64,000 nucleotides of DNA from Bacteroidota bacterium (lineage in GTDB: Bacteria; Bacteroidota; Bacteroidia; NS11-12g; UBA955): positions 372,001 through 436,000 of the forward strand of contig JAMLHC010000003.1 of the NCBI GenBank assembly GCA_023957335.1. The letters run 5' to 3'. Below are positions 1,731 through 16,026 of the stretch, one piece after another. A program made the translations under genes and the position numbers. Each line of letters begins with the position of its first letter. Position 1 is the stretch's first letter. Under the pieces are notes generated by a model, which searched no databases, had not been told where the DNA came from, and saw only the letters and a program-made list of their open reading frames with translations.

Positions 1731-2438
1731 ATGAGTAATTTATTAGTAGGCGAACAAGTTTTAAGAAACGCAATCGCATCAAACCCACAAAAGTACGGTG
1801 CAATCAAATCAGCTCTTGACCAAGGAGTGAAAACCGTAAGACAAGGAATGCATTACTTCGGCAGAAAAGTAGCTGTAAACAGCGACTTGGGCGGAGGAAG
1901 CACAATCAACCTCATCAGAACTGAGGACGTTAAGAAAGAAGGAGTTCGCTCCATAGACAAAGGAAAAGTTCCTGCAGGTTCTATCTTTGTTGCTGTTGGA
2001 TTTATGTTGGAATATGCAACTCTAAGTGCAAGCTCCGGTAAGGATGCTGACGAAGTGTTGTTTAGCAACAAAATCTACAATCCACAAGATACAAATTTTG
2101 TTGAAGCTGAAACCACTAGTGGTACCGAGTATGCCCTTTCAGTTGCAAAGCAAAGAATTCCAACCAAAGTATTGAACTCTGAAATTACTCTGAAAAGAGG
2201 AAACAACACTTATTTCTTTGGTCTATTCCAAGACTGCTGCAAAGAGAACAGCATTGATCAAGTGATTGGAACCGGATTGAACAACGCTTCTGGCGTAACG
2301 TTCCTTCCTTCTCCTATAATCTTTGATGATGAAGCTTCTTTGAAAGCTGAAATCTTGCTTCCAGTGAATGGAGCTGCAGGTACCGCTGACCACTTCTTCA
2401 GAATTCGTTGGTACGGATTTGAAGTAGCAGACATCTAA
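1731..2438 (+). CDS. Candidate phage major capsid protein
   Basis: A 235-residue soluble protein with an N-terminal helical stretch of about 50 residues and then mostly alternating beta-type sequence, ending in the strand-like FRIRWYGFEVADI. It stands alone between a 65-bp leader and a strong intrinsic terminator, the layout expected of the most highly expressed virion gene. The capsid call is inferred from position, terminator, size and beta-rich composition; I see no HK97-fold hallmark. At 235 residues it would be short for a double jelly-roll capsid protein, so a single jelly-roll or another virion role is possible. A structure prediction would decide. Confidence 0.5.
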   Translation: MSNLLVGEQVLRNAIASNPQKYGAIKSALDQGVKTVRQGMHYFGRKVAVNSDLGGGSTINLIRTEDVKKEGVRSIDKGKVPAGSIFVAVGFMLEYATLSASSGKDADEVLFSNKIYNPQDTNFVEAETTSGTEYALSVAKQRIPTKVLNSEITLKRGNNTYFFGLFQDCCKENSIDQVIGTGLNNASGVTFLPSPIIFDDEASLKAEILLPVNGAAGTADHFFRIRWYGFEVADI

Positions 2439-2560: not shown

Positions 2561-2953
2561 ATGAGCAAATTAACATTTAAGTACGTAACCCAGAGAGTTA
2601 CAATAGATACCAGTACTGCTGCAGGATTAAGAGATTTTTCATTCACCTTGGATAACGAGTTTAGCCATGCTACAGAAATGTACATGATTGAACGCAACAA
2701 TGGCGGAGATGCATCCGACTACAGGGTTGGAGTTAGACAAGAAGGCGGTCTGCAGATTCGCGAAATCATGCCAAAAGAAGCGTATCAGTCCCAAACCAAT
2801 ATAGCCATTGCAGACAGATATGTCCCGCTCGGAAACTCACTCGAAGCCAAAGGCAGAAAAGTAGTTGTCTCAGTCGAAACTTATGATGAAACCAGTGATG
2901 AACTTTCTTTTGACATTGTTTACAAATTAGAAAACCTAGCGGAAAACTGTTAA
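2561..2953 (+). CDS. Phage structural-region protein, beta-rich
   Basis: A 130-residue soluble protein starting MSKLTFKYV. The in-frame ATG 78 bp upstream lies in the terminator hairpin, so 2561 is chosen; it follows an A-rich leader as most genes here do. The sequence is rich in short beta-type stretches, with no membrane segment or signal peptide. With the 100-residue beta-rich protein that follows 3 bp later it may form a minor capsid, vertex or cement protein pair, which is an inference from position and size. No family recognised. Confidence 0.7.
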   Translation: MSKLTFKYVTQRVTIDTSTAAGLRDFSFTLDNEFSHATEMYMIERNNGGDASDYRVGVRQEGGLQIREIMPKEAYQSQTNIAIADRYVPLGNSLEAKGRKVVVSVETYDETSDELSFDIVYKLENLAENC

Positions 2954-4296: not shown

Positions 4297-5253
4297 ATGC
4301 CCGAAAACCAAATTCAACATAGCAACAAAAGTCCCTTAATCATTAACCCACAGACTGCTGTCAGCCTTGGCATTATGGCAGTAGCTGCGGTTGGGGTTTT
4401 TGGTGCTTATAAAGTGATGCAGAAAATCGTTGGCGAACCGGGCAGATTCGGACAAGGAGGTGCTTCTTATGAGAATGAAAAAGATCTACAAAAAGAAATA
4501 GATAATTTAAAGACTGAAATCAAAAAAGAGGAAATCCCTCTGAATCCTATTGCTTATAAAACTATTGCAGATGCAATTTATTCCGCCTGTGTGGATGCTG
4601 CAGCCCCCATTTCTTTTACTTTTCGTTCCACCACTTTTGCAAAAATTGTTGAACAATTAAAAGGGTTAAAAACGGAGGAACTTAAACAAGTAGTCGTTGA
4701 ATTTGGAACCAGACCAAACATTTTAGTATTTGGAATTGAGTATGGAGGTGGAGGTTCTATCTTTGATTGGTTTGTTAAACTCTTCAATAGCGACCAACTC
4801 AATGCCCTGCAGATAATCTTTGCATCAACCAAACTATGGAAAATGCCACAATTTCCTGTGCTTTCTCTTTTTGGAGCAAAACAAAATAAGGAGAATGCCA
4901 AAAGATGGCAACCATGGCTTAATGCCAGCGGAAAAGCTAACGGACAATCCTTTTCTTCTTATGCCTATCCTATAGCAGGAAATACAATGGACATGTTTCT
5001 ATATGATTACAACACAAAGAGAAGAGTAGATGCATTCAGACCATCCTCATACACAGAATCCTTCTCAATAACCCTGACCTCAAACCCTGCACTAACTTTT
5101 GGGGCTCAATTTATTTTAACCAAATTCAACAAAAACATAATAGGGATCAATTCTAAACAAAACCTAAACGGAAAATCATTTTGGTTGGATACCCGCTATT
5201 TTAATCAATATGCTCCCAGTCAATCTTTTTTAGACACTTATAAACTTAAATAA
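4297..5253 (+). CDS. Phage single-span membrane protein
   Basis: A 318-residue protein with one hydrophobic segment at about residues 19-37, then a short coiled stretch and a long soluble domain. The topology is a small N-terminal end, one helix and a large domain on the other side of the membrane. It lies between the small structural-region genes and the glucosaminidase and could be a virion protein acting in genome delivery or membrane attachment. I do not recognise the family. Confidence 0.7.
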   Translation: MPENQIQHSNKSPLIINPQTAVSLGIMAVAAVGVFGAYKVMQKIVGEPGRFGQGGASYENEKDLQKEIDNLKTEIKKEEIPLNPIAYKTIADAIYSACVDAAAPISFTFRSTTFAKIVEQLKGLKTEELKQVVVEFGTRPNILVFGIEYGGGGSIFDWFVKLFNSDQLNALQIIFASTKLWKMPQFPVLSLFGAKQNKENAKRWQPWLNASGKANGQSFSSYAYPIAGNTMDMFLYDYNTKRRVDAFRPSSYTESFSITLTSNPALTFGAQFILTKFNKNIIGINSKQNLNGKSFWLDTRYFNQYAPSQSFLDTYKLK

Positions 5254-5256
5254 ACC

Positions 5257-5964
5257 ATGGCAACTCTTAGGACAGACAGAAAATTTTTAGCAGATAATGT
5301 TGCAGACGTGGTAGTTGCCAGTGCGAATACCGGAGTTTTTCCGAGCGTAAAAATGGCGCAGGCAATTTTGGAAACCGGTTGGGGAAAAAGTGATCATGCA
5401 AAATCTAATATCAACAATTACTATGGAATCAAAGCAGATCCTTCATGGAAAGGAAAAGTAGTCAGTAGCGACACATCTGAAGTAGTGAATGGGAAAAAAC
5501 AATCTTTTACCGGAACTGGTAAAATATACAAAAATAGAGATGTAGCAATTGCAGACGGTGCAAGTACTGTAACGCTCTTTAGGGTGTATAGCACTGCAAT
5601 GGAAAGCCATGCAGACCACATTCATTTTTTGAAAGTTAATTCACGCTATACCAACAATGGAGTATTTTCTGCCACTACAGCAGAAGCACAGGCACAGGCA
5701 CTGCAAACCGCAGGTTATGCAACTGCCACAAGCTATGCTTCCACGCTCATTCAAATCATCAATGACAATGGGCTCAAAGAGTTAGACAACATGATGGCAA
5801 ACCCTTCTACACTCAAAGAATTAGTGGCAGAAGTAAAAAAAAAGTCCTCCGCGGAGGTAGAGCTTCAGGAGGATATAGTACAGCAAGTGGAATTGGAATT
5901 GCCTTGCTCGCACTCGGGCTGCTCTGGAAAAATTATGGTCAAATTAGAAATAAAGCACAGCTGA
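5257..5964 (+). CDS. Glucosaminidase-type peptidoglycan hydrolase, possibly frameshifted to a membrane-anchored form
   Basis: Residues 20-170 match the FlgJ/LytG-like glucosaminidase (GH73) fold. The motif MAQAILETGWGKS carries the expected catalytic Glu; NNYYGIKAD follows, and the later SHADHIHFL and AQALQTAGYATATSYA blocks are typical. It would cut glycan strands of the cell wall during exit, or during entry if virion-borne. In the zero frame the last 40 residues are non-descript. In the -1 frame, after a nine-A run at 5835-5843, the tail is a Gly/Ser-rich linker, a hydrophobic helix IGIALLALGLLW and a basic end, stopping at 5970-5972. Confidence 0.88.
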   Translation: MATLRTDRKFLADNVADVVVASANTGVFPSVKMAQAILETGWGKSDHAKSNINNYYGIKADPSWKGKVVSSDTSEVVNGKKQSFTGTGKIYKNRDVAIADGASTVTLFRVYSTAMESHADHIHFLKVNSRYTNNGVFSATTAEAQAQALQTAGYATATSYASTLIQIINDNGLKELDNMMANPSTLKELVAEVKKKSSAEVELQEDIVQQVELELPCSHSGCSGKIMVKLEIKHS

Positions 5965-5972
5965 AGAAATGA
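5835..5972 (+). other. Candidate programmed -1 ribosomal frameshift site and alternative C-terminus
   Basis: The run A9 followed by G (5835-5844) gives the zero-frame codons AAA AAA AAG, a slippery site of the dnaX type. Immediately downstream is the perfect palindrome CCTCCGCGGAGG (5846-5857), with an alternative stem TCCTCC (5845-5850)/GGAGGA (5868-5873). The -1 frame then encodes 42 residues including one transmembrane helix. That frame is closed by a TGA about 70 bp upstream and I find no ATG, GTG or TTG in between, so the helix can only be made by frameshifting. A sequencing error or indel in the A run is the main alternative. Confidence 0.6.
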
Positions 5973-9006: not shown

Positions 9007-9152
9007 AAAAGCTGCTGTACATATTGCCCCTGTTCTTCCTGATCTACTCATGCTCCCCGCAAAAGCGCATGAACAGACTTGTGAGCAAGTTTCCGCACCT
9101 TGTCCGCACACTTGACAAAGACACCACCCTGCACGACACCCTGTATAGATGA
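9003..9152 (+). CDS. Truncated spanin-type lipoprotein, 49 residues
   Basis: From TTG 9003 the reading frame encodes KKLLYILPLFFLIYSCSPQKRM..., a lipoprotein signal with lipobox cysteine that closely parallels the N-terminus of the spanin at 9764. It ends at TGA 9150, overlapping the start of the nuclease-like gene. The periplasmic and C-terminal membrane parts are absent. Its base composition is visibly richer in G and C than its neighbours, as if this end came from a different phage. It may be a degraded copy or act as a short outer-membrane spanin component. Confidence 0.5.
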   Translation: MKKLLYILPLFFLIYSCSPQKRMNRLVSKFPHLVRTLDKDTTLHDTLYR

Positions 9153-9661
9153 ACGTAAATAATATAACCGATAGCCAAAGAGCTGAAGTAAACGCCATGT
9201 TTCAGAGAGTGTTTTTAGGGAAAACGCTTTCCGGACTCGATGGTTTTGATCCGCAAGAGCAATATGAACCCGAATACAAGCAGTTCAAGAACAAACCCCA
9301 AGAAGTAATCCTGCATTTGATGAAAGTCAAAAAAGGAAGATGCTCTGATGCATTGTACAGAGAAGATATAGGCTTTGTGGATATTATTTGGGGATACAAC
9401 AATCCAAAAACAAATATAGGTTTTGGGCTCAAACACATCATTGAAAAGCACGGCAAGGAAATAGCCGAAATCGGTTTTAAAGTAGAAGATTTTATTCCCT
9501 TTGTGTTCAGCGTATTGCCAAAAGCGAAGAAACAGAAAAAGCCTAAAACAAGAATAGCTTACGAAAATAAAAATTATAGGATAATCATTGCAAATGGATA
9601 TTCAGGAGATAAAAAGAAATGGATATTATCGGCTTATGATCGAATTAAAAGAAAAAGGTAA
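9149..9661 (+). CDS. PBECR-type nuclease-like protein, copy 1
   Basis: A 170-residue protein. The second half has the layout of phage-associated barnase/EndoU/colicin-E5/RelE-like domains: GFGLKHIIEKHGKE with two histidines, then FIPFVFS, then a strand pair YRIIIANGY and KKWILSAYD with a late tyrosine. Those families cut RNA or act as toxins linked to phage particles. It is about 85% identical to copy 2 at 10283 apart from the C-terminal third. It follows a truncated spanin, so lipoprotein, nuclease-like gene and small RNA form a duplicated module. The nuclease call comes from motif resemblance only. Confidence 0.55.
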   Translation: MNVNNITDSQRAEVNAMFQRVFLGKTLSGLDGFDPQEQYEPEYKQFKNKPQEVILHLMKVKKGRCSDALYREDIGFVDIIWGYNNPKTNIGFGLKHIIEKHGKEIAEIGFKVEDFIPFVFSVLPKAKKQKKPKTRIAYENKNYRIIIANGYSGDKKKWILSAYDRIKRKR

Positions 9662-10282: not shown

Positions 10283-10801
10283 ATGAACGTAAATAATGTA
10301 ACCGATAGACAAAGAGCTGAAGTAAACGCCATGTTTCAGAGAGTGTTTTTAAGGAAAACGCTTTCCGGACTCGATGGGTTTGACCCCGAAGAGCAATATG
10401 AACCCGAGTATAAGCAGTTTAAGAATAAACCCAAGGAAGCTATCCTGCATTTGATGAAAGTCAAAAAAGGAAGATGTTCTGATGCATTGTACAGGGAAGA
10501 TATAGGCTTTGTGGATATTATTTGGGGATACAACAATCCAAAAACAAACATAGGTTTTGGACTCAAACACATCATTGAAAAGCACGGCAAGGAAATAGCC
10601 GAAATCGGTTTTAAAGTAGAAGATTTTATTCCCTTTGTGTTCAGCGTATTGCCAAAAGCAAAGAAACAAGTGAATCCTAAAAGTAAGTTAGCTTATGAAA
10701 ATAAGCTTTATAAAATAATTATATCAAACGGATATAAAGGAAATAATAAAAAATGGGTATTAACTTCTTATGATAGAATCAAAAGAAAAAAAGGTAGTTA
10801 G
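10283..10801 (+). CDS. PBECR-type nuclease-like protein, copy 2
   Basis: A 172-residue paralogue of the gene at 9149, with the same GFGLKHIIEKHGKE and FIPFVFS blocks and a diverged C-terminal third (LYKIIISNGY, KKWVLTSYD). It starts 3 bp after the spanin stop. The strong similarity at DNA level shows a fairly recent duplication of the spanin-nuclease-RNA unit inside the element. Whether it is an RNase, a toxin or a lysis-linked factor is unknown. Confidence 0.55.
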   Translation: MNVNNVTDRQRAEVNAMFQRVFLRKTLSGLDGFDPEEQYEPEYKQFKNKPKEAILHLMKVKKGRCSDALYREDIGFVDIIWGYNNPKTNIGFGLKHIIEKHGKEIAEIGFKVEDFIPFVFSVLPKAKKQVNPKSKLAYENKLYKIIISNGYKGNNKKWVLTSYDRIKRKKGS

Positions 10802-10904: not shown

Positions 10905-11477
10905 ATGACAATTAAAAATACAAATAACGCTTTGACCTACTTGCTTACAAGCATAGGGATTGTGTTTGGTATTACTTTAATTGTAAACAGAAAAAAGATT
11001 ATGGATTATGCTAAAATGAAAGTCTGGGATGTTATGACTGAAACAAGGATTGCTAATTTACACCCTAAAATCAGAGGCATAGCACGAACTTTTGTAAACC
11101 GAGCTGAAAAAGAACTCGGAATAAAAGTGCGGATAACTGACGGTTATCGTAGCATCGAAGAGCAAAATAAACTTTATGCGCAAGGTCGCACTACTCCCGG
11201 AAGTATTGTAACCAACGCACAGGGAGGTAGTAGCTATCACAATTATGCTTTAGCTTTTGACGTGGTTCCAATTGAAAATGGGATTGCTGTGTGGAATAAT
11301 AATAATCATTGGAATAAACTGGGGCAACTTGGCAAATCACTTGGGCTGGAATGGGGAGGAGACTTCAAAAGCATTTTGGATAAACCACATTTTCAAAAAA
11401 CTTATGGATTGACAACAGGACAGCTTTTGAGCATGTATAACACTGGCAAAACCAACCAAGGATATGTAACCGTATGA
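10905..11477 (+). CDS. Membrane-anchored M15-family peptidase endolysin
   Basis: A 190-residue protein. Residues about 8-26 are hydrophobic (N-terminal anchor or signal-arrest helix). The rest is an L-alanyl-D-glutamate peptidase/VanY-like M15 domain: VRITDGYRSIEEQNKLYAQGR, the zinc motif SYHNYALAFD and a late LDKPHFQ, giving the His, Asp and His ligands. It would cleave the peptide side chains of the cell wall, complementing the glucosaminidase that cuts glycan. An N-terminal helix before an endolysin domain suggests sec-dependent export with release at lysis. Confidence 0.88.
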   Translation: MTIKNTNNALTYLLTSIGIVFGITLIVNRKKIMDYAKMKVWDVMTETRIANLHPKIRGIARTFVNRAEKELGIKVRITDGYRSIEEQNKLYAQGRTTPGSIVTNAQGGSSYHNYALAFDVVPIENGIAVWNNNNHWNKLGQLGKSLGLEWGGDFKSILDKPHFQKTYGLTTGQLLSMYNTGKTNQGYVTV

Positions 11478-14343: not shown

Positions 14344-14692
14344 AAAAACACAATCGCCACACTTTATCTGTGGCGATTTGTGTAATGTGTGGCAAAAAGT
14401 GTGGCGGTGGAGTTACTACTCTACCAACGTTTTACAGAGAAAAAAAGACGGTTGCCACAGTTTCCACAGTTTTTTTGAAAACTTTTATCTCACAAAAACA
14501 TAAATCGAATTTTTGCAACAAAAACACAATCGCCACACTTTATCTGTGGCGATTTGTGTAATGTGTGGCAAAAAGTGTGGCGGTGGAGTTACTACTCTAC
14601 CAACGTTTTACAGAGAAAAAAAGACGGTCGCCACAGTTTCCACAGTTTTTTTGAAAACTTTTATCTCACAAAAACGTAAATCGAATTTTTGC
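14344..14692. repeat. Tandem direct repeat, two 176-bp units
   Basis: Units at about 14344-14516 and 14520-14692 are almost identical; I see only a few substitutions. Each contains the hairpin CGCCACA/TGTGGCG and several CCACA/TGTGG words, and the second unit runs right up to the integrase stop codon. No convincing coding frame is present. Closely spaced repeats beside an integrase could be arm-type integrase or excisionase sites, or an origin. Confidence 0.9.
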
Positions 14693-15840
14693 TAAACTGG
14701 AAGAAAAATATTGTCACTAGGATCCTTTGGACATTCATCCAAATATTCTCTAATGTAAGCTTCAAAACCGCTCAAAGTAGTGTGCCCAGTAATCGCCATA
14801 ATATCTCTCATATTAGTTCCATTTTTGAACAATTCCACTGCAATCGTATGTTTCCAACCGTACAGAGTGTATTCTCTACCTAATCCAAGCTCCTTTTTCA
14901 TTCGGTGGAATTTTCTGGTAAACCAATCTCGAGTAGTTCCTTTTGGCCCGGGAATACCATCGCAGGTAAAAAAGAAATAATTTGCTGGATATTTCCATAA
15001 TTCCATTTTTTCAAAATCCTCTCTAAATCTTTCAAAAATAACCTTCACCGTTCTTTTAGCAGTCTTTTCAATAGCAGCAGGAAGTACAATTTTGAACTCT
15101 TCGGTATCAATATCCTTAACCCTAATTTGAACCGCAGCTTGCGGACGAACTCCCATCATCACAAATTTGCAAAACAGATATAAATAAGGATCGTTCTGCT
15201 CACACCAATATTTAATCCGCTTCACATCTTCTTTTCCAAACACTTTATTTCTTGTACTCCTTGCAGGCAGTTTATCTAAATGCTGGCAAATATTTGTCTT
15301 GCAATAATCCATTTTTACAAACATGCTCCAAGTGGAACGTATATCAACTATTATATTATTGACCGTTCTATTTGAAACACTTTTTTTCTCTCTTACCCAT
15401 TCGAGGAACTTATATATATGTCCGCTTTCAATCTCCGATACAAATTTCACAGACAAATCCTTTTCCTCTAGGTAATTTTTAAAATGTTTGATGTTGCTTA
15501 AATAAGGCTTAAAAGTATTTTTAGTAACAACTTGCTTTTTATAAGAAGCAATAGAATCTAAAGCAAAAAATATAGGTTGGAATCTATTGGGCAAATCAAA
15601 CTTACCGACCTCGGTTTGTCCCAAAATAAGTTGTTTAAAAATGCCGTCCCGTATTTTAACGGCACGTTGCATTTTCTCGTCAAAAGTTAGAAAAGGTTCG
15701 TTTAATCCTTTAGAGAACCTTTTAGTAATTCTTCTACCAGCTTTGTCAGAATATTGGTATCTAATCTGCCAATGCTTCTCTGGTTTGTTTCCAGCCGTAT
15801 CAATAACAGGCATGGAAAACGGTAACTTGTTATTGTACAT
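14692..15840 (-). CDS. Tyrosine recombinase (phage integrase)
   Basis: A 382-residue protein with an N-terminal arm-binding part, a SAM-like core-binding domain (about residues 75-180) and a C-terminal catalytic domain. The first catalytic Arg is in GVRPQAAVQIRV. The second box reads YGWKHTIAV, with Lys where many families have Arg, as in numerous Bacteroidota prophage integrases. It is followed by IMAITGHTTLSGFEAYI with His and the nucleophilic Tyr. It would integrate and excise the element at the neighbouring tRNA gene. Transcription is convergent with the phage operon, and the two are separated by the 176-bp repeats. Confidence 0.93.
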   Translation of the reverse strand: MYNNKLPFSMPVIDTAGNKPEKHWQIRYQYSDKAGRRITKRFSKGLNEPFLTFDEKMQRAVKIRDGIFKQLILGQTEVGKFDLPNRFQPIFFALDSIASYKKQVVTKNTFKPYLSNIKHFKNYLEEKDLSVKFVSEIESGHIYKFLEWVREKKSVSNRTVNNIIVDIRSTWSMFVKMDYCKTNICQHLDKLPARSTRNKVFGKEDVKRIKYWCEQNDPYLYLFCKFVMMGVRPQAAVQIRVKDIDTEEFKIVLPAAIEKTAKRTVKVIFERFREDFEKMELWKYPANYFFFTCDGIPGPKGTTRDWFTRKFHRMKKELGLGREYTLYGWKHTIAVELFKNGTNMRDIMAITGHTTLSGFEAYIREYLDECPKDPSDNIFLPV

Positions 15841-15954
15841 AGGGCATATTAATTAGCTCCTATGACAAACCAATAATTATCACGAATTGCAAGGATTGAA
15901 GTTAATCTTGCACGCCAATACAAAATTAACTTCTCGTAACTTGCTGATTCATAG

Positions 15955-16026
<72 letters not shown>

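Follow-up and report, generated by a model that had tools for sequence, protein, structure and literature searches.

The nine-adenine tract near the 3' end of the lysin gene described here is very probably a site of programmed recoding. It is conserved among temperate Bacteroidota viruses of one group, and through it a single gene would give both a soluble and a membrane-anchored lysin. Read without slippage, the gene would encode a soluble lysin that ends shortly past the catalytic domain; a slip of one base (net −1 frame) would extend the same enzyme at its C-terminus by a transmembrane anchor and a basic end. We regard this as a conserved arrangement and not as an indel, because relatives that were gathered by means of a different gene repeat the out-of-frame anchor. 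The preliminary description of this DNA had proposed one gene, a frameshift, and a soluble and a membrane-anchored lysin, and this core is strongly supported by the related lysins. We infer from sequence the slippage itself, the level at which it would occur, and its rate.

The lysin gene, the A9 tract, and the −1 frame

All positions without a locus name refer to the window, i.e., the whole stretch of 64,000 nucleotides of contig JAMLHC010000003.1 that was analyzed. Read without a frameshift, the lysin gene (5257 to 5964, forward strand) encodes 235 amino acids, the predicted soluble form. Its catalytic domain (residues 20 to 172; 5314 to 5772, forward strand) matches the Pfam glucosaminidase family PF01832 (E = 7.5e-28, 98.1 bits against a gathering cutoff of 30.2), and its matches in PHROGs are endolysin families. 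The slippery tract (5835 to 5844, forward strand), which is kept in relatives, consists of exactly nine A residues (5835 to 5843) and G5844, with the tract length known from one assembly. The 0-frame codons are GTA AAA AAA AAG, which contain an in-phase X_XXY_YYZ heptamer.

The 0-frame tail of the lysin is charged, and a −1 shift exchanges it for VLRGGRASGGYSTASGIGIALLALGLLWKNYGQIRNKAQLKK. This extension (5844 to 5972, forward strand; stop codon TGA at 5970 to 5972) comprises a linker, a transmembrane helix, and a basic tail, in agreement with what had been noted from the sequence at the outset, and the same layout recurs in relatives. The helix, ASGIGIALLALGLLW (5883 to 5927, forward strand), has a hydropathy of 1.57 over 18 residues; here and in the relatives, transmembrane helices were assigned from hydropathy only. 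The open stretch of the −1 frame starts after a TGA at 5763 and contains neither ATG nor GTG. Its sole TTG, at 5904, falls inside the helix, so that the earlier statement that this frame has no independent start codon is in effect correct. No AGGAG-like motif was seen by eye immediately 5' of 5835 in the window, and the anchored lysin has no recognizable export signal.

The palindrome said to follow the tract is also present: the 12-nt sequence CCTCCGCGGAGG at 5846 to 5857 is perfect, although as a hairpin its central bases cannot all pair. The predicted RNA stem that adjoins the tract (5844 to 5874, forward strand) contains this palindrome and consists of a 7-bp stem (GUCCUCC/GGAGGAU) that closes a 4-bp inner hairpin, with a folding energy of −15.7 kcal/mol. 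Its z-score is −2.7 to −2.9, and −1.9 over 60 nt. Across 27 lysins, however, the mean z-score downstream of the site is −0.46, and only 4 of the 27 fall below −2. Folding of the relatives thus rules out the stem as an essential element, and the proposal that a GC-rich stem is part of the signal did not hold.

Prophage setting and candidate capsid proteins

The window carries a prophage of approximately 32.8 kb that is integrated in a tRNA-Met gene. The attachment-site repeat, which is the 3' end of the tRNA-Met (15953 to 15996), adjoins the gene for the tyrosine integrase of the prophage (14692 to 15840, reverse strand; Pfam PF00589), and a 44-bp copy of it lies at L040:3238 (G000:C3:355238). 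The genes located 5' of the lysin encode, among other products, a membrane protein, two jelly-roll proteins, and a transglutaminase-like protein of 1209 residues whose N-terminus matches PF04473. Immediately 5' of the lysin is a conserved gene (4297 to 5253, forward strand), recognized by its syntenic homologues, whose product has an N-terminal transmembrane segment. Several proteins of the operon show hydrophobic segments when inspected by eye.

The candidate major capsid protein (1731 to 2438, forward strand; AlphaFold2 pLDDT = 84.6) is predicted to take a fold similar to a vertical single jelly roll. The best matches of the model among solved structures include the capsid proteins of SPV1, HHIV-2, P23-77 (VP17), HCIV-1, and SH1 (Z-scores of 6.8 to 8.1), but the unrelated mammalian enzyme PHM scores almost equally, and the Foldseek E-value is about 3e-3. 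The second candidate jelly-roll virion protein (2561 to 2953, forward strand; pLDDT = 90.4) is modeled with eight strands and matches the capsid or cement proteins of Pam1, KHP40, and KHP30 (Z-scores of 7.6 to 8.1). Structural matches with Z-scores of about 7 to 8 are only suggestive of the identity of a jelly-roll capsid, and on these models a virion with an internal membrane is plausible but weakly supported. The capsid candidate had no matches in phages, and single-sequence searches with the virion proteins returned nothing in viral_contigs. The fF4-like prophages of Flavobacterium were considered as members of the same group and set aside, as the literature gives them as myoviruses.

Other genes of the prophage were recorded in passing. 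Two genes, at 9149 to 9661 and 10283 to 10801, form a near-identical pair. A second peptidoglycan hydrolase, an M15-type peptidase (Peptidase_M15_4/VanY; 10905 to 11477), is hydrophobic near its N-terminus and could contribute to lysis alongside the lysin. A DDE transposase gene also lies within the prophage (L040:13869-15473).

Collection of related elements

Close homologues of the window lysin were not found; the searches gave only matches of 33 to 41% in unrelated contexts (viral_contigs and phages) and host glucosaminidases in the family, none of which is informative about the tract. The neighboring genes were for this reason used as search markers; the searches began with the first capsid candidate and with the gene that precedes the lysin, and went on to an alignment of the N-terminus of the transglutaminase-like protein. 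The tract was not used in any search for relatives. Two sets were assembled, a discovery set and a second set that was gathered later with the same kind of marker; the relatives are not independent samples, and for several subgroups no lysin was found in the locus stretches examined.

The transglutaminase-like marker was present in 47 of the 395 genomes sampled from the class. The hosts belong to several Bacteroidota orders and include isolates, and nearly all of the named relatives are labeled as Bacteroidota or as a group inside Bacteroidota. Gene order is conserved, and in the loci that were read, the lysin lies closely 3' of the homologue of the gene at 4297. The marker had no match in phages and partial matches on Persicobacter plasmids. 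The related elements on Persicobacter records called plasmids (L133, L134, L135, and L136), two of which are circular with sizes of 48 to 49 kb, may be extrachromosomal prophages. The transglutaminase-like protein of one relative (L051:1121-3445) has six LxGxG motifs, which recall the cleavage sites of viral maturation proteases; there are hardly any in the proteins of the window. Another relative (L045:964-5595, reverse strand) encodes a 1543-residue fusion of an SNF2-like helicase and a zeta-toxin-type kinase near an N6-methylase.

Tract and anchor in the related lysins

In 29 elements, a slippery site precedes a readable anchor that is out of frame; these comprise 19 with A9, 4 with A10, 3 with T9, 1 with T12, and 2 with a bare heptamer. 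In the discovery set, the anchor is out of frame behind A9 in 16 distinct lysins (the window included), behind T9 in 2, and behind T12 in 1; it is in frame behind T10 in 2. The second set added 3 readable lysins with A9, 4 with A10, and 1 with T9, each of which has an out-of-frame anchor, as well as 1 A9 lysin cut by the end of its contig and a single T10 lysin with the anchor in frame. A9, A10, T9, or T12 with an out-of-frame anchor thus occurs in 26 lysins besides that of the window. The shift needed to reach the anchor is −1 in all 29 elements except the T12 case (L054), in which the full anchor requires the opposite shift. The two bare heptamers, GCA AAA AAG in L181 (stem z-score of −2.3) and CCA AAA AAC in L120, have six A residues and are followed by a −1-frame helix and a basic tail.

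The conserved feature is the length of the run, at nine or ten identical bases of either A or T, and all three codon phases (0, 1, and 2) are found. The comparison of homologues suggested in the preliminary description thus bore out the A run, in this broader form, and the −1-frame helix, but not the stem. Isolates with the tract include Flavobacterium profundi TP390, Flavobacterium sp. J27, and Hymenobacter metallilatus 9PBR-2 (about 60% GC); the tail of the last, completed from the genome, reads KLGFVVALGGLAAWFLYQQHAARQAAQPLQQLPR in the −1 frame.

The catalytic domains that precede a slippery tract and anchor vary and include glucosaminidase (PF01832), GH108, GH19, SLT, and an unnamed family. 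L121 (GH108) and L122 (unnamed family) have unrelated catalytic domains and a similar tail of A9 plus helix, and the likeness of these tails suggests that the tract and the anchor move as a unit, with the catalytic domains being exchanged. The unnamed hydrolase-like family (motif NNPGN, no Pfam match) was observed in the lysin position at L095:17132-17731 and similar loci. In a group of Marinilabiliaceae-type elements, lysins of this family have an N-terminal helix instead (read in L095; homologues exist), and those of L122 and L133 have a C-terminal one.

In ten relatives (L130, L133, L134, L198, L200, L202, L204, L205, L208, and L209), the anchor is fused in frame without a tract. These fusions count against the two-form model to the extent that not every member would need two forms. 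Single-frame homologues had been named beforehand as the observation that would point to an indel in the window; they exist in some relatives, but as alternative states of the same anchored architecture, and every readable A tract is out of frame. L194 has no anchor, and L080 has none fused. In a Bizionia relative (L123:13186-13896), the lysin stop is followed in the same frame (TAA CAA ATG) by a small helix-encoding ORF with an ATG start, MASLISKIALGVVVSLTTAYILGRKKL; this anchor may be a separate gene or may be reached via stop readthrough. As read from these loci, a predicted anchored lysin is the common architecture among the relatives, and a putative slippery site is the commonest route to a C-terminal anchor.

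Selection on the −1 frame and rarity of the tract

Comparison of related tails indicates that the −1 frame is under purifying selection as a protein. There are 18 synonymous and 7 nonsynonymous changes between the −1-frame tails of L073 and L086 (pS = 0.63, pN = 0.08), and the values are pS = 0.81 and pN = 0.20 for L073/L077 and pS = 0.14 and pN = 0.01 for L061/L075. The signal is weaker for L070/L074 (0.44 and 0.33, respectively), and by pairwise pS/pN, the tail is mostly less constrained than the catalytic domain. The tract remains intact in these comparisons, whereas only 21 to 64% of the conserved lysine positions outside it have AAA in both partners. In 14 lysins (phase 2), the first base of the run is at the third codon position, and it matches the run in 14 of 14; the product of the codon-usage chances, 1.2e-8, overstates the case, since the lysins are related and were listed for having a run of nine.

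The equivalent operons of 20 elements, 194 kb in total, contain only 4 other A or T runs of at least nine; across 1.33 Mb there are 58 runs of exactly nine and 10 longer ones. Dismissal of A9-G as a common and meaningless sequence was considered, as it occurs 27 times genome-wide (22 for the reversed pattern), but it is nearly absent elsewhere in these operons. Of the control positions, 0.1% gave a tail in the shifted frame that combined a hydrophobic helix with a basic end, and the figure for the helix alone was 2%.

Level of slippage and other explanations

The first set of loci pointed to purely transcriptional slippage, and L181 and L120 led to a more cautious division. We consider slippage of RNA polymerase on the A9 (or T9) run probably to be the main process in the window and the most likely level of recoding. 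It is favored because the run length appears to be selected across codon phases, because T runs occur as well as A runs, because of the T12 and T10 cases, and because there is no conserved stem. In bacteria, selection against slippage usually becomes apparent at runs of nine A or T residues (PMC1088944).

A lesser but real possibility is ribosomal frameshifting into the −1 frame on the A-AAA-AAA/G heptamer, either as the only process or alongside polymerase slippage. In its pure form, of the type known from dnaX and insertion sequences, tandem Lys tRNAs would slip on A-AAA-AAG (or U-UUU-UUN), a downstream stem would assist in some members, and the long run would merely raise efficiency; we rate this form, too, as possible and not as the leading reading. 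All A-tract cases have an in-phase heptamer and the same −1 direction, and L181 and L120, with six A residues too short for efficient polymerase slippage, retain the −1-frame helix. On the other hand, a heptamer needs only 6 to 7 A residues, yet all other cases carry runs of 9 or 10, which occur in three codon phases; the stems are not conserved; and L054 would need a shift in the opposite direction. The dnaX-type ribosomal signal that was originally proposed therefore retains its in-phase heptamer, but a run that is conserved in any phase points at least equally to RNA polymerase slippage. Polymerase and ribosomal slippage would yield the same proteins, and both may act.

An alternative in which the tract is a hypermutable contingency locus, with replication slippage toggling the anchor between cells (phase variation), is improbable. 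Homopolymer tracts mutate fast, and relatives with T tracts occur in either state (T9 and T12 off; T10 on). However, random switching would leave about a third of the tracts in frame, and the 23 readable A tracts of at least nine, with two lengths and three phases, are all in the same off-by-one state (23/23); on this ground, replicative phase variation was rejected for the A tracts.

An indel or assembly error in a pseudogenized or misread lysin is very improbable: homopolymers are error prone in long-read assemblies and the assembly of the window has few contigs (7), but MAGs and isolates from many families repeat the out-of-frame state and have a −1 frame under purifying selection. Equally improbable is a separate small holin-like gene with an internal start, for which the in-frame TTG and the small Bizionia ORF could speak, since the only start in the window falls within the helix, the helix frame in relatives meets the lysin at the tract, and ten relatives have the helix fused in frame.

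Comparison with known systems and proposed function

Recoding is known in replication, tail-assembly, transposase, and secretion genes. Our search of the open-access literature found no recoding of a lysin, and hence none that would choose between a soluble and a membrane-bound lysin. The dnaX gene of Thermus thermophilus resembles the lysin gene in having nine A residues in the coding strand, on which it slips (PMC1088944), and two products that differ at the C-terminus; however, the long product is the unslipped one in dnaX and the slipped one in the viral lysin. E. coli dnaX and insertion sequences, with −1 frameshifting on A-AAA-AAG/C, share the in-phase heptamer and the −1 direction, and two relatives have exactly that heptamer with six A residues. 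Unlike those systems, the lysins have no conserved downstream stem, and most keep 9 to 10 A (or T) residues. In Citrobacter rodentium tssM1 and Shigella mxiE, a homopolymer likewise precedes a premature stop, and slippage gives a longer protein in which a functional C-terminal part is restored. The A11 run of tssM leads to two functional lengths, both of which are needed (PMC4256274). These are bacterial secretion genes, whereas the lysin would gain a membrane anchor on a peptidoglycan hydrolase.

The nearest known parallel to a lysin with two roles is the muramidase P15 of PRD1, a membrane-containing virus; P15 is described as virion associated and as part of the lysis system, with no two-form recoding recorded for it in that source (PMC6356626). 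P23-77, SH1, HHIV-2, and HCIV-1, which are single-jelly-roll membrane viruses, and SPV1 provide the best solved matches of the first capsid candidate, but with Z-scores of only 7 to 8, without a sequence match, and from another host phylum. The prophage of the window also differs from these viruses in its integrase and in the transglutaminase-like gene of its virion operon.

We infer, with evenly balanced confidence, that the anchored form resides in the internal membrane of the virion, where it would breach the cell wall during entry, and that the soluble form acts at lysis. This division between entry and exit is the likeliest role, because the operon encodes proteins with hydrophobic segments together with jelly-roll capsid candidates of the membrane-virus type. 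The virus group itself is apparently widespread and undescribed. Somewhat more tentatively, we propose that these are tailless viruses of Bacteroidota in which a homopolymer slip divides the lysin into a soluble exit enzyme and an entry enzyme anchored in the virion membrane, with the cassette of tract plus anchor being kept and the catalytic domains swapped.

A gene caller that works in a single frame would overlook the anchored form. The lysins, which include members with A9, A10, T9, T10, T12, and a bare heptamer as well as fused and unanchored members, provide a comparative system for polymerase and ribosomal slippage. If expressed as predicted, the two forms would explain how a virus with an internal membrane obtains its entry and exit hydrolases from one gene.
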